Of a stretch of 64,000 nt of DNA, positions 7,290 through 64,000 are shown piece by piece. Within the stretch, counting starts at the first letter, position 1. The number at the start of each line of letters is the position of its first letter. The position numbers were made by a program, and so were the translations under genes. The notes beneath the pieces are model-generated. The model was not told the DNA's origin. It saw only the letters and a program-made list of their open reading frames with translations, and did not search any database. Source of the DNA: Candidatus Chloroploca sp. Khr17 (GTDB taxonomy: Bacteria; Chloroflexota; Chloroflexia; Chloroflexales; Chloroflexaceae); contig NZ_RYFF01000009.1 in assembly GCF_004138165.1 (NCBI RefSeq), positions 61,598-125,597 of the forward strand, given 5' to 3'.

Positions 7290-10187
7290 TTACCGCGTGA
7301 GCAACGGCAGATAGACACGATGCGTGGCGGCGGTCAGCGTTGGCCCAGGGGTCAGGCCGGCACGCTCGTCGGGCAGGCTGTTGACGGGCACAATTGGCTC
7401 GAGCGGCTCGCTCTTGGTGGCCGAGAGGCCGCCGGCGGTCGTGGCTTGCAGGGCCGCCGTTGTGGGCGCCTCAATCACCACACTCAGCCGGTAACGGGCA
7501 GCGGTGAAGCCGTAGACTTCGACCTGGTAGACGCCGGGCACGATTTCGCTGGCCGGGATGATCACTTGCTCGTTGGCCCCGCCATCAAGGTTGCTCACCC
7601 GCGCCGATTGGTCGGCACGCGATGACCAGACGTAGAGATCGGCATCGCCACTCAAAACCTCCAGGTTGGCCGTCAGTTGCTGGCCGGCCTCGGCGGTGTA
7701 GCGATAGGTATGGGTCTGGCGGCGGCCAATCTCTTCAGCGGTTGGTTCGTAGTTGACGAGTTGCTGCGACCGACCAATCGAGATATTGCCCGCCTCGTCA
7801 AGCGCCCGCACCTGCAGATAGTGCATCCCGGAAACCGGTAGCATCGTCCAGTTCACGTCGCTCGGGGTCGCGCTGTAGGGCATCCACCCCGATTGCACCA
7901 CGGGCACCCACTGGCCGGCCCCGACGTTGTAGACATACTCGATCACATGGATCGAGCGGACGCCACTGGGGTTGGGCGAGGGATCGGTCGCCTCAACTGC
8001 GATCCGGGCCTGCGGGGTATTCACCGACGTGCTCGAACCATCACCGACCGTAATGCGTTGCACTACCGGCACCGTGCGATCAGGACTGGCGGCCAACACC
8101 GTCACCGTACGACTGACGACATTGTTAATTTCGGTATCTTCAGGCACGAGATCGTCGGGATCGATGAGCGCGTAGAGATCAAAGGTCTCGGTCTGCGTGA
8201 AGGTCACCGCAAGTGGCGTCGTGCTCTCGACACTATTGGGCGGATCGAGGAACGGCACCGTGCTGCGCCCGAGCACCGGGCCATCCACCGCATCGCGCCG
8301 GAACTCGACCACCACATCCTGCAACACCGCCTTGCCACCAAGGCGATGAACAAGCACCCCGATCTCCGTGGTCTCGCCGGCGCGTGGCGTGACCGGATTG
8401 AGCCAGATCTCGTGATCATAGCCAAGCAGATCGTTATTGCTGCTGGCATCAAGCACGGTATACGCATCGGGCAAGGTCGCCTGCTGTCCATCAGGATTGG
8501 TGACCGTCACCGCGTAGGTACCAACCGGCATCAGCGCCGGCACCACCGCCTGCAACGTCGTGCCATTGATCCGCTGCGTCACCAGTTCGGTCGTGCCGAG
8601 GGTCAGCGTGATGCCATCGGCAAAATTGAAGCCCGCAACCGTCACCTCGACATCCTGATCATTGTAGCCAAGCGAGGGCAACACACTGCTGAGCACTGGC
8701 GCACGGGCCAACACCGTAAAGGCATTGGAGAGCGTCAGACTGCTGCCATCACCAGGGAGCACGGTGAGATCATAGATGCCAACGGGCAAGCCCGCGGGCA
8801 CCACGGCCCGCAACAGCGTCGTGGTCAACGTCGCACTCTCGGTCACCACATTGGTCAGCGCGAAGGTACCGCCGCCATTACTCAACTGCACCGATGGTAT
8901 CGTCGCCGTGGAAAAGCCACCGCCGAGGATCGTCACATCGGTCGCCACATCGTTATAACCCTCCTCAGGCTCAATCGAACGAACCTCTGGCTGGAGCTGT
9001 GGAGGGATGGGAGGATCGGGGGGAGGAGGGATCGGTTCGCAGGAAACCCCAACGATCTGGGACAAAATCGTCGAGAGACTGGCAAAATTGCTGACGCTAA
9101 AGACCCGGTCGGGATCGGCGGTGAGCGCATTCAGTTGCGGCAAATTAGGGCCACTGCCAACGGCGATCGCAAAGAGATGCATCCCGGCATCACGCACCAA
9201 CTGCGCCTCTTCGACCGGATCGCCGCCCTGGTTGTGCGCCCCATCGGTCAGCAGAATCATCACCTGGGGCACCCCGGCACGCCCATTGGCGGCCAGTTCT
9301 TCCCGCCCGAGCTGGAGGCCTTCTTGAATATCGGTGTACCCATCCAGTTGCGTCATCGCATTGACGCGAGCCAGGACCACGCTCGGATCATCAGCAAGGC
9401 GCAACTCGTAGCGGCCCCGGCCCTGCGTGCCAAATTGCGCAATGCCAACCCTGGCATCATCGGGGCTAACCGTATAGCTATTGACCAGATTGCGCACAAA
9501 ATCGCGCATCTGCCGGAAATTCGTCGAAGAGATGCTGCCTGAGCCATCAAGCACCAGCATCAGATCGAGTGGTTCGGTGCATTTGCCGGTATCGAACGTA
9601 ACCTCAACGCGAAACGCATTGCTCTGCGTTTGCTGCCAACGCAGCGTCGCATTGTCGTGGCTATCAGGCGCCACATCGGCGCTGACATAGGTAAGCGTCG
9701 TCGGATAGATCAGCTCGACCAGGCGCGTCGCGGCCACCAGATCACCGCTAGAATTGAGCACATGCACAAAGCCGCTGCTTGTCGCAGCCACATCAAAGCG
9801 ATACGCCGTCACGACCTCGAGCCTCGTCGTGTCCGCCGAACAACTCAGTTCGGTCTCAGACACTTTAGTACAGGCCGAAGGGGGAACGCTCGCAAATTGC
9901 AGACTCGTGGACGCCGAAAACCGAAACGTCATGCTATCTTGCAAACTCAGATCTTCATACACATACGTCGCCGTCCCAAAAACCTGTGGGGCCTCATACC
10001 CCTGGATCGTCGAGGCAACCGTGATCGATCCAGCGGTTGACGCAAGCTCGCCACCACCCGCAGTTGATGTGAAATCACCGTCACCCGTGGCAGCCAGCGC
10101 TGGGCGCTGCGAAGCGAGGCCCACACTGAGCAGACTCGCCAGCAACACCAGCACCAATAACGTCCGACTCTTCCATCGTCGCAGCAT
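7290..10187 (-). CDS. Secreted vWA/IPT/CARDB protein with VYLPL tail
   Basis: The 965-residue product starts at ATG 10187, 10 nt after AAAGGA; a longer in-frame extension lacks an RBS and coding character. A signal peptide ends near ALAATG. After a ~160-residue beta-rich region comes a von Willebrand factor A domain with an intact MIDAS: LDGSGS, a downstream Thr, and LLTDGAHNQGG. A Pro-rich hinge (PPPPDPPIPPQLQ) follows, then two IPT/TIG domains, CARDB, an Ig-like unit and a PPC-like domain, ending RVYLPLLTR. MIDAS-type vWA domains bind ligands through a divalent metal, so adhesion or surface assembly is likely. From the first IPT onward it closely matches the neighbouring gene at protein and DNA level, so the pair arose by duplication with exchange of the N-terminal head. 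Confidence 0.88.
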   Translation of the reverse strand: MLRRWKSRTLLVLVLLASLLSVGLASQRPALAATGDGDFTSTAGGGELASTAGSITVASTIQGYEAPQVFGTATYVYEDLSLQDSMTFRFSASTSLQFASVPPSACTKVSETELSCSADTTRLEVVTAYRFDVAATSSGFVHVLNSSGDLVAATRLVELIYPTTLTYVSADVAPDSHDNATLRWQQTQSNAFRVEVTFDTGKCTEPLDLMLVLDGSGSISSTNFRQMRDFVRNLVNSYTVSPDDARVGIAQFGTQGRGRYELRLADDPSVVLARVNAMTQLDGYTDIQEGLQLGREELAANGRAGVPQVMILLTDGAHNQGGDPVEEAQLVRDAGMHLFAIAVGSGPNLPQLNALTADPDRVFSVSNFASLSTILSQIVGVSCEPIPPPPDPPIPPQLQPEVRSIEPEEGYNDVATDVTILGGGFSTATIPSVQLSNGGGTFALTNVVTESATLTTTLLRAVVPAGLPVGIYDLTVLPGDGSSLTLSNAFTVLARAPVLSSVLPSLGYNDQDVEVTVAGFNFADGITLTLGTTELVTQRINGTTLQAVVPALMPVGTYAVTVTNPDGQQATLPDAYTVLDASSNNDLLGYDHEIWLNPVTPRAGETTEIGVLVHRLGGKAVLQDVVVEFRRDAVDGPVLGRSTVPFLDPPNSVESTTPLAVTFTQTETFDLYALIDPDDLVPEDTEINNVVSRTVTVLAASPDRTVPVVQRITVGDGSSTSVNTPQARIAVEATDPSPNPSGVRSIHVIEYVYNVGAGQWVPVVQSGWMPYSATPSDVNWTMLPVSGMHYLQVRALDEAGNISIGRSQQLVNYEPTAEEIGRRQTHTYRYTAEAGQQLTANLEVLSGDADLYVWSSRADQSARVSNLDGGANEQVIIPASEIVPGVYQVEVYGFTAARYRLSVVIEAPTTAALQATTAGGLSATKSEPLEPIVPVNSLPDERAGLTPGPTLTAATHRVYLPLLTR

Positions 10188-13700: not shown

Positions 13701-14437
13701 TCTACGGCCACGATGCGTGGGTTCAAACGTCCGCCTTTACACCTGATGGACGCCTCCTTGCCACAGGCAGCATTGACCGAACGATTCGGCTCTGGGAGGT
13801 CGCCACGGGCGCGTGCCTCCAGATCCTCACCGGGCACCAGCACTATATCTGGGCAGTGGCGATCAGCCCGGATGGGCGCTGGCTGGCGAGTGGTGGGGTT
13901 GACGAGGCCATCCGGATCTGGGACATCGCCTCGGGGCAGTGGGTGCAAACCTTCACCGGGCACCGTGGGGGAGTCTGGTCGCTTGCCTTTGCTGGCGACT
14001 CAAACCGCCTCGTCAGCAGCGGCCAGGATCAGTGCATCAGGGTCTGGGCGCTCGATCAAGCCCGGTTATGCGCCACCCTCAGCGGCCACGACAACCGCGT
14101 CGTGGCCGTTGCCGTCTGCCCGCAGGATCGCCTGATCGCCAGCGGCAGCGACGACCGCACCGTACGCATCTGGGATCTCGCGACAGGCAGCTGTCGTCAC
14201 ACGCTCAGCGGGCACACCCGGTCGGTCATTGGGGTCGCCTTTCACCCTGATGGTGAGCGGCTCATCAGCGGCAGCGAAGACGGCACCGTGCTCATCTGGC
14301 AAACCAACACCGGCACCTGTCTCAAGCGACTGGCAACACCGCGGCCATACGACGGGCTCAACCTCACCGGAGCCACCGGCCTGACCACAGCCCAGCGTGC
14401 GTCATTGATCGCGCTCGGCGCACGCGACGAGGCATAG
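10733..14437 (+). CDS. STAND protein: HTH, NB-ARC ATPase and 14 WD40 repeats
   Basis: TTG 10733 is chosen because AGGAAG lies 6 nt upstream; a GTG at 10712 has no RBS and sits in a hairpin. The product has 1234 residues. Residues ~30-75 resemble an Xre-type HTH (HFGVDRSTIWRYEEGR). The NB-ARC NTPase has Walker A GMGGAGKT (~190), Walker B LLILDNFE (~262) and an ILTSRE sensor motif. A pentapeptide-like linker (LKQVNFADADLSRSAF) leads into 14 WD40 repeats (~614-1215), enough for two seven-bladed propellers, with repeated GSDD/LWDLATG blade ends. STAND NTPases are signal-dependent switches: ligand binding to the sensor repeats releases ADP and triggers oligomerization. Here the effector would be a DNA-binding domain, implying a transcriptional role. 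An immune-type sensor is possible but unproven. Confidence 0.9.
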   Translation: MSDFQKLPALQITLVEHPLAIFAADLRTWIFSSQARAAQHFGVDRSTIWRYEEGRHPPPLAYLAALTSLVVARLGDHDEPIEQHKARLLHEINQAIVIYYPDAEPFAAWEELEEAGAAFQPARRRMPARQQTDQARASPPPTPALHTASSVQIDWGDAPDVATFYGRQAELAFLQQMFTRGTCRLLGVFGMGGAGKTILTVRLVETVADQFTHVFWRSLINAPPPDQILREFWLAVARPELIPPTSPLQVHELLPLLQHQRCLLILDNFETILNAGEQPDEYREGYAQYGQLLRLFGEARHQSCLILTSREKPRDLHMLEHARKTASRVYAYQIPGLKAADAFEFLRDLDLDLDEPALATLLQRSSGNPKILELVGATIRDLFDGSVASFLAHETILFDDVQAMLHTQFEHLSEAEQEVLFWLAVLREPVTIAQLREHVVVPKRARELLPTIRTLQRRSLIETGAKTVYLQHAVAEFVTDMLVKQLQAELVRGSFDLVQRVALLQAHAKDYVRTSQVRVVLEPLVEHLKSTMSQSALIAHLDALRATLQTDYRGRPGYAGGNLLNLLIHLGADLTGKDFAHLAVWQAYCQGVELKQVNFADADLSRSAFNETFGSIRTVAFSPNGAWLAAGSSNGEIHVWALPSHKHIYTLDGKAWVEALTFSPDSRMLASGGHEPALLIWDLATGTCLDQLAGHTTTVRCLSFSRDGTLLASGSDDATVRLWPMPWEPRADQEQDITVLAAHQGTVWSIALHPTAPYLISAGSDGLIWWDLTTGTATRQIQEHAAAVMTVAMHPTGSLVASGSYDGKAKLWSFTEATCRDTITSHQGPVRAVAFSPDGSLLATGSEDEHIRLWHSHDGSLHSSFYAPANRVRALAFSPDGHLLASGSHDQNVRLWHVKSRQCIMRWQGYVNQLRALAQSPDGQRLAFGVAECIYVVDQSQGEMIHQLCGHSEWVQSLAFSPQGNLLASSSDDHTIRLWNLATFTEHNTLYGHDAWVQTSAFTPDGRLLATGSIDRTIRLWEVATGACLQILTGHQHYIWAVAISPDGRWLASGGVDEAIRIWDIASGQWVQTFTGHRGGVWSLAFAGDSNRLVSSGQDQCIRVWALDQARLCATLSGHDNRVVAVAVCPQDRLIASGSDDRTVRIWDLATGSCRHTLSGHTRSVIGVAFHPDGERLISGSEDGTVLIWQTNTGTCLKRLATPRPYDGLNLTGATGLTTAQRASLIALGARDEA

Positions 14438-52097: not shown

Positions 52098-52535
52098 CTA
52101 TATTAAGTGTAGTTGCAAACTGATCATTAATATATATATCTTTGCTTCGCTATTTATTGCTTCAATGCGTATTTTATGGATGTGCCGCCCAATATGAAGG
52201 AGACGTCGCTCCCGCCGTCTCGCTCCCATACCTTGCCAAAAAGCTGGTTGTTTTGACGCAAAGGCGCAAAGGCGCAAGGTTTTGCGTGGCGGTGCGCTCA
52301 CCCTTCGTGGCTTGGCGGGAGCTTCTTGGCATGGGATTGCGGCATCGCCTCGCGCTGCCTCGCTCTCCCTTTCAGATGCCAGCATCGTTGCACGTGCGTC
52401 GCTATCGGCATCGAGCAGGATCTTCGCCAGATCGCGCTCCAGGACATACGAGACAACATCATCGACGACAATCAACGTGTTGGGTGGAAGGTGCCGCACG
52501 CGCTCGTCAATGTCGGCAATCGTCACCGATGGCAT
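52098..52535 (-). pseudogene. Truncated DUF2281-like antitoxin, interrupted by a repeat
   Basis: ATG 52535 follows AGGAG. The first ~55 residues (VTIADIDERVRHLPPNTLIV, then DDVVSYVLERDLAKIL) look like the small antitoxins of the DUF2281 type. From about residue 60 the frame runs into the dispersed repeat (52219-52360) and then into AT-rich sequence, giving an unrelated tail. The native C-terminus is therefore lost. No toxin partner is adjacent. Family assignment is from memory of similar Chloroflexota proteins. Confidence 0.5.
52219..52360 (+). repeat. TTTGCGCC-type dispersed repeat, copy 2
   Basis: This stretch contains CCTTGCCAAAAAGCTGG, then TTTTGACGCAAAGGCGCAAA and CTCACCCTTCGTGGCTTGGC. 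It matches 54432-54573 over ~140 bp in the same orientation. Together they bracket the three-gene cassette at 52606-54294. Confidence 0.75.
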
Positions 52536-54431: not shown

Positions 54432-54573
54432 CCTCGCTCCAATCCCTTGCCAAAAAGCCGGTTTTTTTGACGCAAAGGCGCAAAGGCGCAAGGTTTTGCG
54501 CGGAGGTTCGCTCACCCTTCGTGGCTTGGCGGGAGCTTCGTTGTATGGGATAGCGTCTCGCCCTGCGCTGCAC
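54432..54573 (+). repeat. TTTGCGCC-type dispersed repeat, copy 3
   Basis: It has the same orientation and extent as copy 2 at 52219-52360, including TTTTTTGACGCAAAGGCGCA and CTCACCCTTCGTGGCTTGGC. Confidence 0.75.
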
Positions 54574-54646
54574 GATGCGCCGCAGTGGTTGCGCCGCCTG
54601 CCCTGGCGTTGCGTGGGTTCCGCCGCTTGTCGCGCCCTCGTGCTGC

Positions 54647-55012
54647 CTACGTTGAGTGCGCAGGATACGGTGGGTCAACGCGAACCTGCGCAGTTAAGGG
54701 TTTCGATGGAAGGCGTTGGTGGTATGACGGTTTTTTCCAGATGACGTGACCGTTTGGCAAGCCGCTCGCAGCCGCCGAACCGGCCTGGGGATCGGCCACT
54801 GCTTGGCCCGTGATCTGGCCCAGGATGACGTCGTTCCCGGTGAGGGTTGCCACCACCAGGGCTAGGCGCTTCTTCGCCGCGCTCATGCTGCCTGAAAACG
54901 GAAGCGAGGCGCCCACCAGGTTGATGGCGTTACCAAGCGGTACGAACAGGATAGGCTGCGAAAATGGGATCGGCACTGATTCCCAAGCTGGTACTTGATG
55001 TGCATTTCCCAC
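54647..55012 (-). pseudogene. PemK/MazF-like toxin remnant
   Basis: Within this frame LVGASLPFSGSMSAAKKRLA and LVVATLTGNDVILGQITGQA read like the beta-barrel core of PemK/MazF toxins, where related proteins have KRRPALVVA and DVILCQIT. The N-terminus is replaced by out-of-frame vapC sequence, the Arg-Pro of the core is Leu, and the end lacks the usual C-terminal helix. It is a decayed fragment. Confidence 0.5.
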
Positions 55013-55137
55013 ACGCTTGTCACGCCGAGGATGAGGTCATTTGCGGGGTCGCTGCATAACGCCAACGCTGTGGCGGATAATTTGGCCGGATCGCTGTCCC
55101 ACCAGATAAACGTATGCGTATCGAGCAACAGCTTCAC
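54883..55137 (-). pseudogene. Truncated PIN-domain toxin (VapC-like)
   Basis: GTG 55137 overlaps the antitoxin stop (GTGA), as in intact vapBC pairs. The first ~52 residues are a normal PIN N-terminus: LLLDTHTFIWW with the first acidic residue and VTSVWEMHIKYQLGN with the conserved Glu. The sequence then leaves the family, and the later Asp residues of the catalytic site are missing because the frame has joined the PemK-like fragment. RNase activity is not expected. Confidence 0.65.
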
Positions 55138-55370
55138 GGCGTTCCGATCCAAACATCATCGGGCAAAGGTTGATCAAAATCGGGGTGCATGCGCATACTG
55201 CCCGCATGTAATCCTGGGACACGCTGCCCAGCCTGCGACGCGATGGGTACGAGACGCGCACGTGGGGTCTGCCCATCGAGTAAGATAATTTCGGTTCCCG
55301 TTGCGACCTGAGCGACCAATTCCGCGAGGTGTTGCTGGGCTTCGTGGATCGCAACTGATTTTGTCGTCAT
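55134..55370 (-). CDS. Phd/YefM-family (VapB-like) antitoxin
   Basis: The 78-residue product starts at ATG 55370 behind GGAGGAAG. The N-terminal MTTKSVAIHEAQQHLAELV is a Phd/YefM DNA-binding dimer module, followed by EIILLDGQTPRARLVP. The C-terminal PDFDQPLPDDVWIG is the toxin-wrapping tail common in Chloroflexota. It has its own consensus-like promoter. The partner toxin is truncated, so this is probably an orphan or solitary antitoxin. Confidence 0.85.
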   Translation of the reverse strand: MTTKSVAIHEAQQHLAELVAQVATGTEIILLDGQTPRARLVPIASQAGQRVPGLHAGSMRMHPDFDQPLPDDVWIGTP

Positions 55371-55394
55371 AGCTTCCTCCAACGATATGCACAA

Positions 55395-55423
55395 ATTGTA
55401 GCCCAGGATCAAGGTGCTGTAAA
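55395..55423 (-). promoter_or_regulatory. Promoter of the VapB-like antitoxin
   Basis: On the minus strand TTTACA (55418-55423) and TACAAT (55395-55400) are exactly 17 nt apart, 25 bp before the start codon. Confidence 0.65.
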
Positions 55424-55663
55424 GCCGGTCGGTCATCTACTGTAGGACGATTGCATCTTCCTGCCGTGGCCGTGAACGGCTCGGCTCCTGGGGAGCGAAG
55501 GCCGCCTGCGCGGCCTCATCCAGCCGGCGAAGGTAGATCTGCCTTCATCTTTATGCTCCTCTTGCGCAAGAACGTCCGGATCATTCACGCTTATCCACGA
55601 TAAGCCTTAACCTTCGTTATAGAACATCGCTATGTAAATTGCACCAGCCCAAACCGGTCAAGC

Positions 55664-55862
55664 CAGGGCGATTGCATCATACGAAACCGGATACAACAAG
55701 ACGCGCTATCAGGGCACCCGCAAGGGGTGCCCCTACAGGTCGGCCGGGCCGTCGTGGTGGTGTGCGCGGCCCCGGCGCACCCCGGCGGGGGCCGGGCCCG
55801 GTGTACGGGCACCCCTTGCGGGTGCCCTGGCGGGTGCATACACGGAAGATGCAATCGCCCTG
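55664..55862. repeat. MITE-like element, copy 3
   Basis: It has the same 14-bp ends (55665-55678 and 55848-55861), here with an outer C/G pair. Direct repeats CCGGTCAAG lie at 55654-55662 and 55863-55871. The 199-bp copy has a longer GC-rich loop than copies 1 and 2. The rest of 55437-55663 holds a possible left-end relic (GGACGATTGCATCTTCC at 55444-55460) and no gene. Confidence 0.8.
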
Positions 55863-55932
55863 CCGGTCAAGACTGGCTACGGCGTTACGGAAGATACAAT
55901 CGCCCAAACCGGTCAAGCCTGGCTACGGCGTT
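55863..55932. repeat. Duplicated flank plus relic MITE right end
   Basis: A 24-bp sequence (55863-55886) is repeated with one mismatch at 55909-55932. Between them lies ACGGAAGATACAATCGCCC, the MITE right end with one change. The second copy covers the stop codon of the glutaminase-like gene. Confidence 0.65.
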
Positions 55933-56972
55933 GACGAACGCGCTGACGCGGCAGATCCACGCATGCTGAGTGCTTCCTGGAGCTTGGTACGCTGCTCGGG
56001 CGGAGCGAGCATGTGGAGGCCGAAGTGATCCGCGAAGGCCTCGCAGACCCTGATCCCACGCAGGCTGTGGCCCTGGTCATTCAGTAGCGGCGAAAAGACC
56101 GCCAGGCCCAGTTGCCCCGGTACCACCAGCATAATCGCCCCGGTGCTACTGCTCTCGGCGGGCAAGCCCACCCGATAGGCCCACATACCGGCCATCGTAC
56201 GCATCCCGCAGGTATACATCACACTGAGGATATCACGCACATACCGCGGCTCGATCACCTCGTCATTGCTCACCGGATTGCGCCCATGATGAGCCAGCGT
56301 TGCCGCCATCATCGCCAGGTCACGGCAGTTCACCAGCAACGCCTGCTGCTGAAAGAAGAGATCAAGCGTCGGTTCAATGCCCTCAGAGAGCATGCCACGG
56401 TCGCACATCAAATGCGCCAGCGCACGGTGGCGATGGCCTGCGGCACGGGCTGCCGTAAACATCGTGGCATCAGACACCATCTCATGGTTGGCGAGGCGGC
56501 GAAAAAAGGCGAGATTCTTCTCGAGGCGCTCGGTCACACTGGTACCCCGTAACAGGGCCAGCAGGCCAAGTGCCCCCGAGGGAACTAATGGATTGGGCAA
56601 GGGGAAGACGGCATTATCGCTCAAGAGAAAACTCTCGTGGACTGGTTCGACGCCAACATGCGCCAGAATTCGCTCGGAACCCTCTTCCATCAACGCCAGA
56701 GCATACATAAACGGATGCGCCAGCGCCTGAATGGTAAACGCCTGCTGGCTATCACCAATTTCATACATCCGCCCTTTGGTATCAACCACGCAGATAGCAA
56801 ACCAGTTTGGATCGGCCCGCGCCAACTCGGGCAGCGTCGCGGCAAGATGGCCTTCAGACAACGGGGCCAGCGAGCGGTGCAGATCGGCAAGCAACGCCCG
56901 CATCGGGGACGTGACCGTCTTCATCCCACGAACGAGAGCCGTCAAATCATCAGAGTCGGTTTCGCTGCTCAT
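55923..56972 (-). CDS. Glutaminase-fold protein lacking the catalytic Ser-Lys pair
   Basis: The 349-residue product starts at ATG 56972 after GAGGAG and overlaps the PaaK-like gene by ATGA. Similarity to GlsA-type glutaminases runs the whole length: FTIQALAHPFMYALAL, VGVEPVHESF, VMYTCGMRTMAGMWAYRVG and VVPGQLGLAVFSPLL. In active GlsA the first motif is SxxK (QSISK); here it is QALAH, so Ser is Ala and Lys is His. The NAGA loop is PSGA, and the Lys of the K-S-G motif is Glu (PAESSSTG). Glutamine hydrolysis is therefore unlikely, and a binding or regulatory role is inferred. It is the last gene of the signalling operon. GlsA domains elsewhere are fused to STAS or cNMP-binding domains, which supports a regulatory link. 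Confidence 0.85.
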   Translation of the reverse strand: MSSETDSDDLTALVRGMKTVTSPMRALLADLHRSLAPLSEGHLAATLPELARADPNWFAICVVDTKGRMYEIGDSQQAFTIQALAHPFMYALALMEEGSERILAHVGVEPVHESFLLSDNAVFPLPNPLVPSGALGLLALLRGTSVTERLEKNLAFFRRLANHEMVSDATMFTAARAAGHRHRALAHLMCDRGMLSEGIEPTLDLFFQQQALLVNCRDLAMMAATLAHHGRNPVSNDEVIEPRYVRDILSVMYTCGMRTMAGMWAYRVGLPAESSSTGAIMLVVPGQLGLAVFSPLLNDQGHSLRGIRVCEAFADHFGLHMLAPPEQRTKLQEALSMRGSAASARSSTP

Positions 56973-58342
56973 GATGTGGTTTCTCCTCTGGTCATCGATC
57001 CTGCCGCCTCGCCTGGCGCAGAGGCAGCGCCCAGCAGCGACTGTATCGGGATATGTTTGCCCGAACGGGTCCGGGCAAGGGACGGCACACATTCCACGCG
57101 AACCTGAAAATGGTGGCCGAACGTCTGGCAAAAATGCTGAGCGACCAAGGCATGGTCACGCTCAGCCTGGTAGAGCGGGCCAGTGACGAGGCGCACCCTG
57201 ACCGTATGCAACGCTTCTTGCACAATCTGAAATTCGCGGATATCAAGCGCGAGTTTGAGCACCAGATCGTACGACCAGTCGAGAATGCGCCCCGACGGAA
57301 TATCGGGGGCATTGGCCTGCTTGAAGGCCGCATTTTTGCGTCCCGACAATTCAGCCAACACCGGAGCCGTCTTGCCACACGAACAGGCGTCATGGTCAGC
57401 CGCGATCGCCATATCGCCCTGACGATAGCGAATGATCGGCATCGCCGCATTGATCAAACAGGTACCCACAATCTCGCCGAGGTGACCAGGGGCGACCGGG
57501 CCATCGCAATCAGGATGCAGCAACTCAATATAGGAACAATCCTGGACAAGATGATAGCGTTTGTGAACACACTGCTGGGCAATGCTGGCGAGCTCTTCCG
57601 ACGAATACTCATCGAAGACCGGGCAGCCAAAGACCGCGGCAAAATAATCGCGTTCCTCTTGCGTCGCATGTTCCGAGTTGGTGACAATGGCCTTGAGGCC
57701 CAAGGTCGCACACTGCGCCCCATAGAGCATAACGAGCTCGCGCAGGATCGACGGATAGATCGCCAGGATCGCCGGGCGCAGGCGACGCATCGCGGCGAAG
57801 ATCTCGGCGGCTGGGCGCAGATTATGGATATAATGCACCCGGTACAAGCCGGCCAGCGAGCGCACCGGATAGGGCGAGGTATAGACAAGCAGCTCGCGAT
57901 CGGTTGGGTGATAGGCAGGATAAAACTCTTTGAGCATACGCATAACCTGCAACGCTTGCGTAATAAAATTCTGGCTATCGAGATAAACCGTCACAAACTT
58001 GCCCGACGATCCCGAGCTTCGCGAGACGATCAGCCGGTCACGCCGAATACGCCGGTCAATCATCGCCTCGCCATGGGCAATCAACTCGTCCTTGGTCACC
58101 GTCGGCAACGCCTTGAAATCCTCAAAGCTCTGGATATCCGAAGGATGCATACCTGCGGCTGCATACTTCTGATGATAAAACCATGTATGATCATAAGCAA
58201 GCGTAACCAATTTTTGAAGTCGTTTCAATTGATATGCTTTCACTATCTCTTGATCAAGAAAAGGAAAGCGTGCCACACTCGGAGCGAACAGGGCAAACTG
58301 AACAAGCAAAGCAAGGTGTTCACGCCATGAAAGTGCGCGCAT
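56969..58342 (-). CDS. Phenylacetate-CoA ligase-like adenylate-forming protein
   Basis: The 457-residue product resembles PaaK/CapK-type adenylating enzymes. It has the P-loop RSSGSSGKFVTVYLD (~108-122), AIVTNSEHATQEE, FDEYSSEELASIAQQC and the motif PIIRYRQGDMA. A metal-type Cys pair (DACSCGK) follows. The C-terminal Lys-bearing loop reads RTRSGKHIPI. These enzymes activate a carboxylate with ATP, sometimes loading CoA or a carrier. The substrate is unknown. Its place between an NTT/MFS carrier and a glutaminase-fold protein is unusual for a catabolic ligase. Confidence 0.85.
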   Translation of the reverse strand: MRALSWREHLALLVQFALFAPSVARFPFLDQEIVKAYQLKRLQKLVTLAYDHTWFYHQKYAAAGMHPSDIQSFEDFKALPTVTKDELIAHGEAMIDRRIRRDRLIVSRSSGSSGKFVTVYLDSQNFITQALQVMRMLKEFYPAYHPTDRELLVYTSPYPVRSLAGLYRVHYIHNLRPAAEIFAAMRRLRPAILAIYPSILRELVMLYGAQCATLGLKAIVTNSEHATQEERDYFAAVFGCPVFDEYSSEELASIAQQCVHKRYHLVQDCSYIELLHPDCDGPVAPGHLGEIVGTCLINAAMPIIRYRQGDMAIAADHDACSCGKTAPVLAELSGRKNAAFKQANAPDIPSGRILDWSYDLVLKLALDIREFQIVQEALHTVRVRLVTGPLYQAERDHALVAQHFCQTFGHHFQVRVECVPSLARTRSGKHIPIQSLLGAASAPGEAAGSMTRGETTS

Positions 58343-58348
58343 AGGCGT

Positions 58349-59695
58349 TTAGAATTCCAGTTGATCGAGCACACTCCGCCGATGCTGGCGACGCTTGAGC
58401 CGCCAATTGAGCATACTCTGGTCATAACTGAGATAGAGCTGGCGCGCCAGCATCAGGGCAACCAGCGCACTGATCGTCGCAACCGCGAGATAGAGACTAC
58501 GCCCCACCAGGGGCGCAAGCCAACCCTGCTGCATCAGCAGCACCACCCCTCCGGTCACGAGACAACTCAGGATCGAACCTGCCGGATAGAGATAGCCCTC
58601 CATAAAGGTACTGACACGACCACGGCGCTGATCAGGGATCATGCCCTGGAAGGCCTGGCGCGCCGGCTGATCAATGCCCGTCAGCACGAGACGGATGAGA
58701 TAGTTGCCAATGATTGCGCCGGTCAACATCAAGCCACCCACAGGCGCAAGCCAGAAGAGCATCAGCAGCAACGCCAGGAACATACTGCCGGGCATCACAG
58801 CAAAAATCCCTTTGAACCCGGGCTGCTTGAGCAACCAGGGCGTCAGGAAGGCCTGGATCACCAGCAAAACCGGCACGCTGGCGATTTTGAAAAGCCCATA
58901 AAAGGTCTGCAACTGGCCTGGGCCGGTAAAGTGCGCCGCAAGGTCAACCAGAAATTGATACTGGATCGTATTGAGCGCAAAACCCATCAAGATCATGATG
59001 AGCGCAAGAAAGCGATACGCCGGCACCTCGCGGACAAACTCGAAGCCCTCTTTGACCATATCGCGCAAGTGGTCACCGGCCTCAGCCGAGGGTAGGTTCA
59101 GCGTCACACGGAGGCGTATCACCGCGAGCGCCACTGCCCCGAGCAACAGAAGCACCCCATTGAGCACCAACAGCAGGTGCGTCGCCGCACCAAGCCACTG
59201 ACCAAGGGCAGCAACAAGCGCATTGCCAACCACGCCACCGATAAGCACCGACGCCGAGAGGAGCGGGAAGAGCCGCTTGGCAGCAGCGACGGAAAAGAGG
59301 TCATTCGCGAGCGTCCAGATCAGCAAGGGCAGCAGTGTCCACTGCTGTTCGGTAAAGATCGCCAGCAAGCCATAGGCAAAAAACGAAGGCGCACCAGCGA
59401 CAAAGAGCGCATACAACCCCAGATAGACCAGGCTGGCCCCGCAAAAGAGGGCGACACCGAGCCAGACACGGTCAATGCGATCAACCACGAGGGCATAGAG
59501 ACTCGACGTCACCATCGCCACGAGCATGACCGTTGCCCAAACGACCAGGATCTGATCAACGCCCACCTGGCTCACAAAGCCACTCGTTGCAATCACCTCG
59601 CTCGACTCGAGCACCAGCGTATTCGTAAAGAGCAAAAAAGCCAGCAAGCCCACCCGTCCGAATTCACCAGGGAGGAGCAGTTGTCGTTTCCACAT
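58349..59695 (-). CDS. MFS/NTP-NDP-exchanger-like membrane transporter
   Basis: The ~448-residue product starts at ATG 59695 without a strong RBS. About twelve TM helices are predicted with a central cytoplasmic loop (NLPSAEAGDHLRDMVKEGFE). The pattern FTEQQWTLLPLLIWTLANDLFS, with DLFSVAAAKRLFPLLSAS, is reminiscent of ATP/ADP-translocase-like (NTT) and related MFS carriers in multi-gene signalling clusters. A cytoplasmic basic tail follows. The transported molecule is unknown. It lies 6 nt before the PaaK-like gene. Confidence 0.75.
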   Translation of the reverse strand: MWKRQLLLPGEFGRVGLLAFLLFTNTLVLESSEVIATSGFVSQVGVDQILVVWATVMLVAMVTSSLYALVVDRIDRVWLGVALFCGASLVYLGLYALFVAGAPSFFAYGLLAIFTEQQWTLLPLLIWTLANDLFSVAAAKRLFPLLSASVLIGGVVGNALVAALGQWLGAATHLLLVLNGVLLLLGAVALAVIRLRVTLNLPSAEAGDHLRDMVKEGFEFVREVPAYRFLALIMILMGFALNTIQYQFLVDLAAHFTGPGQLQTFYGLFKIASVPVLLVIQAFLTPWLLKQPGFKGIFAVMPGSMFLALLLMLFWLAPVGGLMLTGAIIGNYLIRLVLTGIDQPARQAFQGMIPDQRRGRVSTFMEGYLYPAGSILSCLVTGGVVLLMQQGWLAPLVGRSLYLAVATISALVALMLARQLYLSYDQSMLNWRLKRRQHRRSVLDQLEF

Positions 59696-59726
59696 AGGCA
59701 CTTGGCTTTAGTTATGTCATGTTGCG

Positions 59727-60881
59727 CTATTCGTTGGTCGAGGCAGGCTGCGCCTTGCCACGTTCACGCATCTCGCGTGCCTTTTGCTTCAGATCACGAA
59801 AAAAGTCAGTCTCCACAATCTCCTTGACCTGATCGCTGCGTTTATGTTCATCAATCATGATCTGGAGATCCTGCACATGCTTGCGCAGATCCTGCTCGCG
59901 CTGGATCACTTCCTGGGCCATTGTGCCAAAGACCCGGCTTAACTGTGCGATCTCATCATCACCTGTGGCTGCTTTCAACGTCTCGGCCTGGGCCACCGTG
60001 AGCGTATTCTTTTCCATCGCACGGGCGGCCTCGCTCAAATCAATCAGCGGCCGCGTCATACTCTGCGCCATCAACGCCGCATTGGTAATAATAAAGACCG
60101 TCGTCATCAAAATCGTCACGGCCAGTTGAAAAAAGACCCCCCCAAAGGCACCTGCCCAACCTCCATTGAGGCGCGCATTTGCCTCGAGGAGAAAGAGGCT
60201 GAGCATAATGATCGGCACAGCCGCCGAGATCACGACGGTCAGCAAGACGCGCTGCATCAAACCAGCGCGAAACATTGCTGGCCCATAGAGGTGACGATAG
60301 GCATAGTTAAAGAGCAAGATCGGCACAATGACCGCCGCATAGATCCAGTTAATCAGCACCAGAGGAAGATTGTTACGCGCCACCGTCTGCCAGATCGTCG
60401 TCTGATCCTCATAGACAAAGACAAATGGATCGAGCACCGCCGCAAAGAGACCCGCCGCCACCACAGCAAGCGAAGTCAACCCGAGCGCTTTCAGCAAGCC
60501 TTCCCGCGTCTGATAACACCACTGACGCAGCACGGCAAAACCGGGGATGAGGCCCAGCAGCCCATTCGCGACTTGCCAGTTGATCTGCAAACTCGCCGCA
60601 AGCGCCTGGGGTGAGGAAGCATCAAGCGGAAAGTGGACAAACCCGGTGAGCATATCAGCCAGCAGATTGCCCCCAAAGCCCACCACAAACCCAACCAGCG
60701 GGCCAAAGGCAAACCCGAAGAAGATCGGGATCGCCACGCCGGGGCGCAGATTACCTGCAATCGCACTTGAACTGGTCGTCGCAAAGACAGTCACCCACGA
60801 GGTAGCAGCATAGAGGACGGCCCCCAGAAGGGCCATCCGCACCAGAAACCCCCATCCAGGTTGTGTTGCAGGGCGATCCAT
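59727..60881 (-). CDS. Membrane HAMP protein with ECF-S-like (vitamin transporter) input domain
   Basis: The 384-residue product starts at ATG 60881 after AAGGGGA. The first ~200 residues have six TM helices with RPGVAIPIFFGFAFGPLVGF and GFGGNLLADMLTGF, the hallmark of ECF-type substrate-binding (S) components. Two further TM helices precede a HAMP domain (~265-325, MTRPLIDLSEAARAMEKNTL). The protein ends in a coiled-coil (~325-370) and a basic tail, with no kinase, cyclase or methyl-accepting domain. It looks like a small-molecule sensor whose output must come from partner proteins in the operon. Confidence 0.8.
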   Translation of the reverse strand: MDRPATQPGWGFLVRMALLGAVLYAATSWVTVFATTSSSAIAGNLRPGVAIPIFFGFAFGPLVGFVVGFGGNLLADMLTGFVHFPLDASSPQALAASLQINWQVANGLLGLIPGFAVLRQWCYQTREGLLKALGLTSLAVVAAGLFAAVLDPFVFVYEDQTTIWQTVARNNLPLVLINWIYAAVIVPILLFNYAYRHLYGPAMFRAGLMQRVLLTVVISAAVPIIMLSLFLLEANARLNGGWAGAFGGVFFQLAVTILMTTVFIITNAALMAQSMTRPLIDLSEAARAMEKNTLTVAQAETLKAATGDDEIAQLSRVFGTMAQEVIQREQDLRKHVQDLQIMIDEHKRSDQVKEIVETDFFRDLKQKAREMRERGKAQPASTNE

Positions 60882-60906
60882 CACGTCACGTCCCCTTGAA
60901 CATTGT

Positions 60907-61671
60907 CTACGCGATGAGCAACGATGCCAGCCGGTCGAGCCGCGCCGTCATCGGGTGGTCGGGATATTTCAAGACAAAAATGCCTGAACTCGACAAGACC
61001 ATCATCTCGTCAGAGTGGGGCAGAATTGCGCCAACACGACAGTTATAGGTCTGCTCGATCTTCTGCTGCACATGGTCAAAGTCAAAGACCGGCGGCACCT
61101 TGTTGACCACCAAGAGCAAATTGGGTACCTCAAGCTTGCGGGCGACCTCGACTGTCACACTGGTGCCCTGATAATCCTGGTTATCGGGGCGCATAATGAT
61201 CGCCAGCGCATCCGAAATCGCAATCGAAAGCAACGTCTCTTCATTGAGACCAGGGTGGGTATCAATCATCAACACATCGAGCTGCAGGTCTTCGAGCAAT
61301 TGTTGAAACCCATCATTGAGCAACCCCACATCATAGCCCTCGCGGAGAATCTTGGCAATTTCACCTGCCTTGATACTCGACGGGATCAAGAAGACCTGCC
61401 CCGTGAGACCGGGCTTGAGCTGTTGCAAAATCGAGGTCACATCCATCGCCGCGTCTTTAATTTCGCACTTGCCCCAGAGATAATCGTTCAGCGAGCGGCT
61501 GATATGCTCTTCATCCAGACCAAAGAGCACATGGATGCCCGGCGACTGAATATCAGTATCGACCACCCCAACCCGGAGGCCACGCTGGGCCAAGAGTGCG
61601 GTGATATTCGCCGTTGTATTCGATTTACCGGTGCCACCACGAAACGAGTGGATCGAGATAATCTTTGACAT
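60907..61671 (-). CDS. MinD/ParA-like ATPase 1
   Basis: The 254-residue product has the deviant Walker A HSFRGGTGKSN (~8-18), in which the usual signature Lys (KGGxGKS) is Arg. It also has switch I VDTDIQSPG, a Walker B-like LMIDTHPGLNEE, and base-recognition VVNKVPP. There is no clear C-terminal membrane-targeting helix. MinD-like ATPases dimerise on ATP and position or switch partners. It is 27 nt after its paralog and 25 nt before the HAMP gene. Confidence 0.88.
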   Translation of the reverse strand: MSKIISIHSFRGGTGKSNTTANITALLAQRGLRVGVVDTDIQSPGIHVLFGLDEEHISRSLNDYLWGKCEIKDAAMDVTSILQQLKPGLTGQVFLIPSSIKAGEIAKILREGYDVGLLNDGFQQLLEDLQLDVLMIDTHPGLNEETLLSIAISDALAIIMRPDNQDYQGTSVTVEVARKLEVPNLLLVVNKVPPVFDFDHVQQKIEQTYNCRVGAILPHSDEMMVLSSSGIFVLKYPDHPMTARLDRLASLLIA

Positions 61672-61698
61672 AGGTTGCCCTTCTCTGTTTCACTACGA

Positions 61699-62523
61699 TC
61701 AACCGGGTGGTTGTTCGATGGCCGGGAACGGATCAAGGTGGCTCAGCAATGCCTCGGCCACATGCGCAAAGACACGGGTGATGGCATGCTCGGGATAGCG
61801 CAACACAAAGAGGTCGGCACTACCCAGCGCAGCAAGCTCGGGATGATAAGGAAGCAACGCCAACACAGGATGGCGGTAGGTCTGAGCTAACTCTTGGCTG
61901 ACCCGTACCGGATCAAAAAGCGTACTGATCTGATTGGCCACCTGCACAATCTGCGGCACCCGCAGCGTCTCGGCAATATCAACTGCCACCGCTGTCCCCG
62001 CATAATCAGGCTGATCGAGCTGAAGCACCAGTACCAGCGTCTGAGCGACGGCCAGCGAATGGATCGCCAGCATGCTCTCTTCTTGAATGCCGGCATGCGT
62101 ATCAATCAAGAGCGTATCAAGCTGCAACGCCTCTGCCATCGCGATCAGATCATCGGTAATGCGCTCGATCCGAAAGCCGTTCTGCAGCAAGGCCGCACGA
62201 TCACGCAACCGTGGACTGGCCGGCATCAGCCAGATGGATCCAGTCTGATGCATCATAACAGACCCAGGCGCAAGCTGCCAGTTGGGGGTGACATCATACC
62301 AGGCGTCCTTACCTTCACAGCGCTCAAGTAAGAAATCGTTGAGCGTGGCGCCAATTGCTGTCACCTCGAGGCCAAAAAAGGAGGTCAGTCCACCCTCTTG
62401 CACATTGGCATCAAGCAGGCCAACCCGTTGACCACGCCGAGCAAGCAGGGCGGCAGTATTGGCGGCGAGCGTCGATTTGCCGATGCCCGCACGGGCCGAA
62501 TGAAAGACGACACACTCAACCAT
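61699..62523 (-). CDS. MinD/ParA-like ATPase 2
   Basis: The 274-residue product is a paralog of the next gene. Walker A reads HSARAGIGKST, again with Arg in place of the signature Lys and Ala for the first Gly. LLDANVQEGGL and LLIDTHAGIQEES are the switch and Walker B regions, and VANQIS aligns with the NK(V/I) base motif but lacks the Lys. The two ATPases may form a heterodimer whose cycle is controlled by the phosphatase/RsbW-like pair. Confidence 0.87.
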   Translation of the reverse strand: MVECVVFHSARAGIGKSTLAANTAALLARRGQRVGLLDANVQEGGLTSFFGLEVTAIGATLNDFLLERCEGKDAWYDVTPNWQLAPGSVMMHQTGSIWLMPASPRLRDRAALLQNGFRIERITDDLIAMAEALQLDTLLIDTHAGIQEESMLAIHSLAVAQTLVLVLQLDQPDYAGTAVAVDIAETLRVPQIVQVANQISTLFDPVRVSQELAQTYRHPVLALLPYHPELAALGSADLFVLRYPEHAITRVFAHVAEALLSHLDPFPAIEQPPG

Positions 62524-62564
62524 CAGCGCACAGCCTCCCTTTGGAGATGGAACATCATCAAGGC

Positions 62565-63827
62565 TCAGGCGGCGATCCGTTGAATCGCCAGCATGGTAAT
62601 GTCATCGAACTGGTCAGCACTAGCAATATGGGCCTGGAGATTGCGTTCGAACCGATCGAGTACCTCGGTCGCCGACGCGGCTGGCTGGGCCAAGAGTTGG
62701 AGCAGGCGCTTTTCGCCAAAGAACTGGCGCTCGGGGTTACGCGCATCAGTGACCCCGTCACTATAACAGAAGAGGATCTCGCCCGGATCGATCTGGGCAT
62801 GGGCAATATTAAAATCGGCCCCAGGGATCAAGCCCACCGCCGGTCCAGTCATCGCGAGTTTTGTGCGGACACCATCAGGACCAACGATCAACGGCGGACA
62901 ATGGCCCCCATTTGCATAGATCAGCGCACCAGTCACCGGATCAAAGACGCCAAAAAAGAGCGTGACGAACATATTCATATCCAGATGGTTGTCGGTGATA
63001 TAGTTGTTCGTCAGCACCATCGCATTCTTGAGCGAGGCCGCCCCAATCGTCGGGAGAGCCTGCCGCCCCTTTTCGCGGCGCGCGACAGGGGTCAAGGCAT
63101 CCCCCGAACCGCCAAGCACGTTGGTCCAGTCACTCAAGCTATAGTGCTGCTGGGCAAAAGCCCGCACCAGGCTACGCGACAAAGACATAAAGAGGGCGGC
63201 CCCAACCCCCTTGTCACACACATCGGCAATCACAAAGCCAACGCGCCGATTCTGGGTCAGCATGAACGCATCATAAAAATCGCCCGCGACCTCACGCGCC
63301 GGATGAAACCGGGCGGCGATCTCCCAGCCAGGGAGTTGCGGCAACTGACTCGGCAGAAAGCCCAGTTGAATCTGGCGGGCAATCTGGACATCACGCTCGA
63401 TCTTCAACAAGGTCTCTTGCTGATCATCATTCTGTTGATGTTCAAGCAACGTGCGTTGCGCCAGCATGCCCTGCACCCGCGCCTTGACGACCGGGGGCAA
63501 ACACGAAGCCGGGATATAATCAACGGCCCCCATCTCGAAACAGCGGGCCAGGCCAGGGTCAAGATCGTCGGGCGCAATCATGAGCACCGGTGTCATCATG
63601 AGCGCACCAGTGGCACGCATCCGCTCCAGAACCTGGTAGCTATTGATTGCCCCCCATAAGCCAAGTTCAAGCAGGGCCAGATCAAAACGCTGGGTCTTTA
63701 ATAAATCAAGCGCTGCGCGTCCATTGTCGAGGGCCGTCACCACATAGCCGAGGGCTTCAAGCTGGTCGCGGAGCAGATTGCGTCGCTCGGCTTGTTCGTC
63801 GATAATCAGGATCGTCTGGGCCGCCAT
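62565..63827 (-). CDS. Pseudo-receiver/SpoIIE (PP2C) serine phosphatase
   Basis: The 420-residue product starts at ATG 63827 after GGTGGAG. Residues ~5-120 form a response-regulator fold with the acidic pair IDE, but the phospho-acceptor Asp is Glu54 (ALLELGL), the switch Thr is Ala (LMIAPDD) and the conserved Lys-Pro is absent (DYIPAS). A coiled linker (~122-150) leads to a PP2C/SpoIIE domain with metal-binding AGDFYD, ADVCDKGVGAALFM and CYSDGVTD intact. It should dephosphorylate a Ser/Thr on a partner (STAS-type) protein, as RsbU does. The Glu substitution suggests constitutive or non-phosphorylation control. Confidence 0.93.
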   Translation of the reverse strand: MAAQTILIIDEQAERRNLLRDQLEALGYVVTALDNGRAALDLLKTQRFDLALLELGLWGAINSYQVLERMRATGALMMTPVLMIAPDDLDPGLARCFEMGAVDYIPASCLPPVVKARVQGMLAQRTLLEHQQNDDQQETLLKIERDVQIARQIQLGFLPSQLPQLPGWEIAARFHPAREVAGDFYDAFMLTQNRRVGFVIADVCDKGVGAALFMSLSRSLVRAFAQQHYSLSDWTNVLGGSGDALTPVARREKGRQALPTIGAASLKNAMVLTNNYITDNHLDMNMFVTLFFGVFDPVTGALIYANGGHCPPLIVGPDGVRTKLAMTGPAVGLIPGADFNIAHAQIDPGEILFCYSDGVTDARNPERQFFGEKRLLQLLAQPAASATEVLDRFERNLQAHIASADQFDDITMLAIQRIAA

Positions 63828-63837
63828 AGCTCCACCC

Positions 63838-64000
63838 TTATGCTTGCAGAGGTCGATACATCACAAAAATATTGCGGTTCATCTGATCAACATATTCGTA
63901 GTTGAAATAATCAACCCCTTTGAGGGCCAGATAAACTCCAAGACCACCAATGTTGCGTTCTTCGAGGGGGCGATCGAGATCTTCGGGGTCGGGCCGTTCA
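63838..64000 (-). CDS. RsbW-like anti-sigma/serine kinase ATPase, C-terminal part (partial)
   Basis: The frame enters from the right edge and stops with TAA at 63838-63840, 10 nt before the phosphatase gene. The visible 53 residues contain LEERNIGGLGVYL and FVMYRPLQA, the G2-box and end of GHKL-type HATPase_c_2 domains found in RsbW/SpoIIAB serine kinases. This completes a kinase-phosphatase partner-switching pair. Confidence 0.8.
   Translation of the reverse strand, partial: ERPDPEDLDRPLEERNIGGLGVYLALKGVDYFNYEYVDQMNRNIFVMYRPLQA

Follow-up and report, generated by a model that had tools for sequence, protein, structure and literature searches.

A probable 13-gene operon of Candidatus Chloroploca sp. 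Khr17 in which a partner-switching module adjoins MinD-like ATPases and a tailed membrane sensor

A run of genes in Candidatus Chloroploca sp. Khr17, a filamentous green bacterium, places an RsbW-type kinase and a SpoIIE-type phosphatase beside two MinD-like ATPases, a membrane sensor, a carrier, a PaaK-like enzyme and a glutaminase-fold protein, and raises the question of what such a set could control. The genes lie at the end of the stretch studied here, 64,000 nucleotides of the 6.4-Mb genome (NZ_RYFF01000009.1, contig positions 61598-125597), which is called the window below. An earlier note, made from the sequence alone, had read them as a single eight-gene signalling operon. Our analysis revealed that the operon is real and conserved, and that it consists of two joined modules with different distributions: module A, with the gene order AGE-STAS-GlgX-STAS-RsbW(-SpoIIE), where AGE is an N-acylglucosamine 2-epimerase-like protein; and module B, centered on the MinD-like pair and a sensor with a conserved C-terminal tail. 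The partner switch, the MinD-like ATPase and the NTT-like carrier are of known kinds; their combination and the link between tail and ATPase were not met in the literature searched. With a probability of roughly 0.4, the operon would be a sensory control unit acting on a pair of carbohydrate (glycogen-type) enzymes, module A acting as the partner switch and module B as its membrane-linked input. All eight open reading frames (ORFs) are open and lie on the minus strand; in 5' to 3' order, with the elements discussed below, they are:

63838..64000, minus: RsbW-like anti-sigma kinase, 3' part (ORF; RsbW-type models at 3e-9 to 6e-8, below NCBI cut-offs)
62565..63827, minus: receiver-SpoIIE (PP2C) phosphatase (Pfam PF00072 and PF07228; alignment with relatives)
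61699..62523, minus: MinD1, a MinD/ParA-like ATPase with the motif SARAGIGKST (Pfam, NCBI models, alignment)
60907..61671, minus: MinD2, a MinD/ParA-like ATPase of the RGGTGKSN family, with Arg for the signature Lys (Pfam, NCBI models, alignment)
59727..60884, minus: membrane sensor with an ECF-S-like domain, HAMP and the C-terminal tail (PF07155, PF00672; alignment)
59757..59912 (contig 121354-121509), minus: conserved output tail of the sensor, about 50 residues (tail profile model A3)
58349..59701, minus: NTT (ATP/ADP translocase)-like carrier, a many-helix membrane protein (PF03219, profile, predicted fold)
58352..58426, minus: C-terminal motif of the carrier, YDxSxLNWRL...S...F (invariant columns in seven sequences)
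56969..58342, minus: PaaK-like adenylate-forming enzyme (NCBI models, PaaK structure match)
55923..56972, minus: glutaminase-fold pseudoenzyme, 349 aa from the ATG at 56972 (PF04960 at 8e-84; fold match)
56715..56726, minus: lost Ser-Lys catalytic dyad of the glutaminase, SxxK changed to ALAH (alignments)

The spacing reported in the earlier note, from a 4-bp overlap to 41 bp, is confirmed by the ORF coordinates: the gaps are 10 bp (RsbW-SpoIIE), 41 bp (SpoIIE-MinD1), 27 bp (MinD1-MinD2), 22 bp (MinD2-sensor), 25 bp (sensor-carrier) and 6 bp (carrier-PaaK), followed by a 4-bp overlap (ATGA) of PaaK and glutaminase, which presumes the glutaminase start at 56972 rather than the mechanical TTG at 57131. 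The latter start was ruled out, as aligned relatives (L087, L088 and L090; L-numbers denote loci or stretches, G-numbers the genomes compared) begin at residue 54 of the long form, residues 1-73 of which have a predicted local distance difference test (pLDDT) score below 50. Among the sites predicted across the window, no terminator-like site falls on the minus strand in the gaps between the eight genes, and the same gene order was found in all three Chloroploca genomes examined, with conservation well above chance; neither of the grounds on which the note would reject the operon, internal terminators or an unconserved neighborhood, applies. Overall counts of predicted signals in 54500-64000 were near chance (7 promoters against 4.5 in shuffles; 14 terminators against 9.9). 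The domain labels also hold, those of the receiver and SpoIIE, both ParA/MinD-type ATPases, ECF-S and HAMP, the TLC/NTT carrier and the glutaminase by Pfam, and the PaaK type by models and structure.

The reading as one unit thus stands on spacing and conservation, but the eight genes are not the whole of it. The RsbW gene is truncated at the window end and extends to approximately window 64260-64299 (8436 to 8858 or 8897 of L009, the stretch reaching upstream past window position 64000). Beyond it, on the same strand and moving away from RsbW, L009 contains genes for STAS, GlgX, a second STAS, the AGE-family epimerase (612 aa) and a 96-aa protein (13775-14065, minus strand). This last ORF heads the operon, has no Pfam match, and is matched by length and place in the other two Chloroploca. 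A stand-alone eight-gene unit was therefore rejected, and the eight genes are the probable 3' part of a 13-gene operon (12 named genes and the 96-aa ORF), a single transcript being deduced from gene spacing. The STAS start overlaps the GlgX stop by 4 bp; however, depending on the choice of starts, the upstream part has gaps of up to roughly 55-126 bp, which makes co-transcription less certain there than in the 3' part. The diverging neighbors further upstream encode a ThiJ/PfpI-like protein, a TPP enzyme, SnoaL-like proteins and a metallo-beta-lactamase-fold protein. Several genes, namely the carrier in L085 and L086, the glutaminase in L089, and SpoIIE and STAS in L009, lie under longer antisense ORFs and were placed by homology-search or ORF coordinates.

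Module A was followed in the best 80 of at least 564 AGE-relative matches in named genomes, so that the counts describe close relatives; each denominator counts the loci that have the gene or enough room for it. The gene after AGE encodes STAS in 78/80 loci, with GlgX next in 78/79; the second STAS is present in 62/70, RsbW in 65/71, and SpoIIE, on either strand, in 44/70. Record titles of these loci include Cyanobacteria, Chloroflexi, Bacteroidetes, Geobacteraceae, Competibacteraceae, Accumulibacter, Nitrospirae, Acidobacteria and Laterigemmans, which we take to be a planctomycete. Genes for DJ-1/PfpI, VOC, SnoaL, TPP and GMC proteins often occur upstream. Streptomyces and Deinococcus plasmids carry module A with SpoIIE and MinD, and a Nostoc plasmid carries AGE-STAS-GlgX-MinD. 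AGE and STAS are fused in a single protein in four of the seven plasmid AGE proteins tested (Nostoc C052, Nostoc edaphicum, Gloeothece and Gemmobacter), and RsbW and SpoIIE share one ORF in Deinococcus KNUC1210 (where the record annotates the SpoIIE part only) and in a metagenome-assembled genome of Anaerolineae. In the Runella rosea plasmid (L112), RsbW is followed by nSTAND1-WD40, TonB receptor, GNAT and MFS-HEAT genes, not by SpoIIE and MinD; relatives of the nSTAND1-WD40 gene recur at other Bacteroidota module A loci.

The partner-switching pair proposed in the earlier note is supported by both RsbW and SpoIIE and gains its STAS partners upstream, so that an RsbW-type kinase, STAS proteins with Ser and a PP2C phosphatase are encoded together. 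The STAS model TIGR00377 scores above its cut-off. Ser occupies what we assume to be the phosphorylation position in all 158 STAS ORFs scoring at least 90 bits; the fused STAS of Nostoc C052 has Thr there. The closest known systems are RsbU-RsbV-RsbW and SpoIIE-SpoIIAA-SpoIIAB, which likewise combine the kinase, a STAS protein with phosphorylatable Ser and a PP2C phosphatase in one operon (PMC11418112, PMC12143880, PMC8256260). In contrast, the STAS genes here alternate with genes for sugar enzymes and are fused to them in places, no sigma factor gene is near, a MinD pair follows the phosphatase, and the receiver of the phosphatase is degenerate. The RsbW kinase would phosphorylate, and the SpoIIE phosphatase dephosphorylate, the two STAS proteins flanking GlgX, and these may act on the neighboring GlgX and AGE-family epimerase, instead of or in addition to releasing a sigma factor.

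The strongest competitor is an ordinary transcriptional switch, in which RsbW holds a sigma factor encoded elsewhere, STAS frees it, and GlgX, the epimerase and the remaining genes are a stress regulon within the same operon. The families that RsbW, STAS and SpoIIE match operate such switches, STAS retains its Ser, the wider cluster with its DJ-1/PfpI, SnoaL, VOC and GMC oxidoreductase genes resembles a stress set, and the genome has 13 Sigma70_r2 places. However, the nearest of these is about 70 kb from the operon on the contig, so that of the STAS protein or sigma factor which the earlier note proposed to seek beyond 64000, only the former, in two copies, was found near the operon. Neither do the feature tables of five plasmid stretches list a sigma factor, although these tables are incomplete according to PLSDB. 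As, moreover, the STAS genes are interleaved with enzyme genes and fused to the epimerase in four proteins, we regard a transcriptional switch as possible but not probable.

The second line of evidence for a sensory control unit comes from module B. The HAMP domain of the sensor runs into a C-terminal tail that ends in a basic stretch and is common to otherwise unrelated proteins. Its carriers, identified by Pfam or by reading, comprise ECF-S-HAMP (the window), Cache-HAMP, HAMP alone, CHASE2, receiver-HAMP with a HisKA match, cyclic nucleotide (cNMP)-binding proteins, in some of which HAMP also scores, and long HAMP proteins that by eye look like HAMP-GAF. Seven sequences from six genomes of set 1 (100 relative genomes) went into the tail model A3, so that this set is partly training data. 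Set 2 comprised 49 genomes of the 80 AGE loci taken in list order (L122-L170 and L172, without L134), leaving outside L120 and L121 (excluded as Chloroploca), L171 and L173-L199; it repeats two set-1 genomes (G125 has the same places as G017, and G148 the same as G046). Cut-offs were E 1e-3 (set 1) and 1e-6 (set 2) for the tail and 1e-30 in both sets for MinD2. In set 1, 37 genomes have both tail and MinD2, three the tail only, none MinD2 only and 60 neither (p 3e-24); the respective numbers in set 2 are 23, 0, 1 and 25 (p 4e-13), and over the 147 distinct genomes 58, 3, 1 and 85. As the genomes of both sets are interrelated, these p values overstate independence; hence genera were also counted, and the 47 genera of set 1 gave 20 with both, one with the tail only, none with MinD2 only and 26 with neither. 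The two are less than 1 kb apart in 8/37 (set 1) and 14/23 (set 2) genomes, and less than 5 kb in 20/37 and 19/23. Many pairs being unlinked, the co-occurrence is not due to linkage alone, though contig breaks conceal some pairs. A 145-aa ORF of Rhizobium jaguaris ends in the tail and overlaps the MinD2 start by 4 bp. In G083, a receiver-HAMP protein with the tail is encoded directly before a MinD2 gene (L207, 8311-9612), so that a two-component system could feed the ATPase.

The ATPases themselves differ from the cell-division protein. All 11 aligned sequences of the MinD1/MinD2 family have Arg at the position of the signature Lys of the deviant Walker A motif, and MinD2 scores 47.7 bits against the cut-off of 212.9 of TIGR01968. 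MinD2 ends in LASLLIA, and no C-terminal membrane helix was seen when its sequence was read. The pairing of MinD-like ATPases with a membrane sensor, on which the earlier note had based a membrane-associated switch, is upheld by the domain matches. As in the window, a second, diverged MinD2 copy adjoins MinD2 in G009, G011, G016, G025, G026, G038, G041, G044, G047, G050, G053 and G055, which suggests a heterodimer. Two Nostoc and Pseudanabaena plasmid stretches (L105 and L110) have MinD2-family genes near Nif11/NHLP-type peptide clusters; the gene of a Cache-HAMP-tail protein lies 2.6 kb away in L105. In the proposed control unit, HAMP would pass a change, presumably caused by a ligand, to the tail, which may dock on and probably stimulate MinD2, with MinD1 as its tandem partner.

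For the tail, the closest precedent is the short basic activating element grafted on varied partners of ParA/MinD ATPases (PMC7993993). PomZ/PomX, MinD/MinE and McdA/McdB share with module B a deviant Walker ATPase and a short basic-ended element on unrelated domains, whereas module B has Arg for the signature Lys and a C-terminal element, of putative binding, on HAMP, Cache, CHASE2, receiver and cNMP sensors. For the link to receptors, it is the ATPases placing chemotaxis clusters, ParC and PpfA, that come closest (PMC10241942); unlike these, the ATPases here form a tandem pair and an NTT-like carrier is linked. Accordingly, module B could be a positioning system of this kind, in which MinD2 places tailed sensors (and the carrier) with no signal to SpoIIE, and adjoins module A for co-regulation. 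The published placing of chemotaxis clusters by ParA/MinD ATPases and the short basic activating peptides that their partners bear on diverse domains (PMC10241942, PMC7993993) favor this, as do the basic end of the tail and its grafting on many sensor types. The activating peptides described there are, however, N-terminal, unlike the C-terminal tail; cNMP-binding and receiver proteins carry tails as well; and SpoIIE-MinD adjacency recurs in several phyla. We consider pure positioning unlikely.

This adjacency is the third line of evidence. A SpoIIE-type gene directly precedes MinD in Chloroploca, Deinococcus, Streptomyces, Elainella and L172. What precedes MinD1 in G009 is a 134-aa receiver fragment of a SpoIIE gene, and in L122 a CHASE2-tail protein directly follows SpoIIE. 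The receiver of the window phosphatase is a pseudo-receiver, with Glu at the phospho-Asp position (codon 54, window 63666-63668). Glu is found in all three Chloroploca, Ala in G009, and other residues in L106, L109 and L124; SpoIIE of L128 has no receiver. As the phospho-Asp has been lost, the phosphatase probably takes its input from elsewhere than receiver phosphorylation, and MinD is its neighbor. In the control unit that we favor, the state of the MinD pair would set the rate of SpoIIE, and thereby the balance of STAS phosphorylation against RsbW and the activity of GlgX and AGE. A chance neighborhood, that is, two unrelated modules merely co-transcribed in Chloroploca, would agree with the occurrence of each module without the other; the recurrence of SpoIIE followed by MinD in Chloroflexota, Elainella, Deinococcus and Streptomyces, accompanied in Elainella and Deinococcus by the tail and the NTT-like carrier, makes it highly unlikely.

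The carrier scores just above the cut-off of PF03219 (22.7 against 21), and its profile matches AtNTT1 (9j3j) with E 3e-10. The model has a pLDDT of 84, and Foldseek ranks three NTT structures first and other MFS carriers next; both family profile and fold are thus those of NTT/TLC proteins. Compared with the NTT (TLC) ATP/ADP translocases, such as AtNTT1 and Chlamydia NTT1, which it resembles in sequence profile and predicted fold, the window carrier has only about 14% identity in the fold alignment and a conserved C-terminal motif, invariant in 7/7 sequences, which we infer to lie on the cytoplasmic side. The carrier (E 1e-15) occurs in 11/100 set-1 genomes, all with MinD2, and adjoins MinD and the tail in G059, G044, G053, Elainella and Deinococcus. 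It may belong, with its own end motif, to the same membrane assembly as the sensor. The Runella MFS-HEAT protein was considered as a relative; it gave no match to the window carrier and 12.8 bits with the Deinococcus carrier, and no homology is claimed.

The glutaminase-fold protein matches PF04960 at 8e-84 and known glutaminase structures at 30-34% identity; its best NCBIfam model is NF002134, and the C-terminal part of that model also weakly matches STAS1. It resembles the serine-dependent glutaminases (GlsA; NF002134) in fold and identity but lacks their Ser-Lys dyad: as the earlier note had it, the enzyme is dead, the catalytic Ser and Lys being replaced by Ala and His in all three Chloroploca. 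The second Asn of NPMVNAG, the Tyr of LDLYFQQ and the SGVGGG loop are changed as well. Two copies in G025 also lack the dyad (Ala with Thr or Asn), whereas relatives in G015, G030 and G083 keep it. The ratio of nonsynonymous to synonymous substitution rates (dN/dS) over the three Chloroploca species is 0.09, 0.19 and 0.15, for which reason the protein is a maintained pseudoenzyme; a decayed pseudogene was ruled out, the frame being open in 3/3 Chloroploca from the ATG at 56972. Genes of this subfamily adjoin the tail gene or MinD2 in G025 (two copies), G015, G030 and G083, and in G009 a C-terminal glutaminase fragment adjoins the sensor gene; by this placement outside the genus, the glutaminase belongs with module B rather than with module A. 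Five other glutaminase loci (L091-L095) showed no tail. The protein could be a ligand-binding or scaffolding subunit of the membrane assembly.

The PaaK-like enzyme falls below the cut-off of Pfam AMP-binding, and the DVU_1553 and PaaK models match it at 1e-36 to 2e-23, all below NCBI curated cut-offs; the PaaK structure matches at 2e-20. Alignments reveal the stretches SSGSSGK, YRQGD and CSCG, the first two presumably being the phosphate-binding loop and the YRxxD-type motif of adenylate-forming enzymes. PaaK-like proteins, tested as a possible part of module B and used as the control for the co-occurrence of tail and MinD2, occur in 47/100 set-1 genomes with no association with MinD2 (17/37 against 17.4 expected, p 1.0). 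The small-molecule sensing suggested in the earlier note depends on PaaK and the glutaminase, and at the loci examined these two accompany module A in Chloroploca alone; the sets that recur across phyla are module A and, separately, MinD with a tailed sensor, in some cases joined by the NTT-like carrier. A pathway in which a compound enters through the carrier, is adenylated by the PaaK-like enzyme, bound by the glutaminase-fold protein and reported by the sensor would explain the adjacency of these genes in 3/3 Chloroploca, but is very improbable, given that PaaK is independent of MinD2 over the 100 genomes and was found in none of the non-Chloroploca module A loci examined, and that the carrier or the glutaminase travels with MinD2 or the tail without PaaK.

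A number of observations weigh against the sensory control unit. First, module A usually works without module B, a MinD2-family gene being within reach of the AGE cluster in 11/66 loci with room for it and SpoIIE in the 44/70 given above, and PaaK and the pseudoglutaminase are additions to module A seen, among the loci examined, in Chloroploca only. Second, the module A order is not universal: among eight more plasmid AGE loci (L112-L119), the full AGE-STAS-GlgX-STAS-RsbW order is found in Runella only; GlgX precedes the epimerase in the plasmid loci of Nostoc C052, Nostoc edaphicum, Gloeothece verrucosa, Gloeocapsopsis and Gemmobacter; the STAS gene is on the opposite strand in the Streptomyces SAT1 plasmid locus; and the Nostoc ATCC 53789 plasmid stretch contains neither GlgX nor STAS. 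Third, some key residues vary: the fused STAS of Gemmobacter has Ala for the phosphorylation Ser, Met stands at the Arg position in the second Deinococcus MinD2-family copy, which is outside the alignment, Gln replaces the P-loop Lys in the Elainella MinD, and the SpoIIE receiver keeps its Asp in L137, L155 and L172. Finally, three genomes have the tail without MinD2 and one MinD2 without the tail; no pair within 5 kb was seen in 17/37 and 4/23 genomes; and of the seven plasmid MinD2 stretches (L105-L111), three contain the tail and four, Streptomyces included, do not, within the stretches. The co-occurrence shows dependence, not direction or binding.

A broader claim, which we hold to be somewhat unlikely, is that the tail of about 50 residues, on about seven sensor architectures in several phyla, would be the docking and ATPase-activating element for the Arg-variant MinD family, the sensors signaling via a P-loop ATPase and not via a histidine kinase, CheA or a cyclase, and the pathway here commanding a partner switch that regulates glycogen enzymes directly. 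If this were true, the ATPase with which a receptor communicates could be predicted from one tail sequence in Cyanobacteriota, Chloroflexota, Deinococcota and some Proteobacteria, an output could be assigned to many orphan HAMP, Cache, CHASE2 and cNMP proteins, and the AGE-STAS-GlgX-STAS-RsbW cassette of many phyla would offer a way to test whether STAS proteins control metabolic enzymes with no sigma factor involved. The earlier note knew of no described pathway with the composition of this operon, and none was met in our search either: titles and abstract beginnings of open-licence papers, which are not proof of absence, gave no description of an AGE-STAS-GlgX cluster or of the tail with MinD.

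Several minor features lie downstream of the operon. Window 54883-55436 (minus strand) contains a gene for a Phd/YefM-like antitoxin (24.7 bits, below the Pfam cut-off of 29.8) and, after it, a short ORF resembling by eye the start of a PIN toxin, with no Pfam match. A 123-nt direct repeat, 91% identical, at 52219-52341 and 54433-54555 flanks genes without Pfam matches. Three imperfect 40-nt repeats (60-75% identical to the first) occupy 55628-55922, the last one abutting the glutaminase stop codon.

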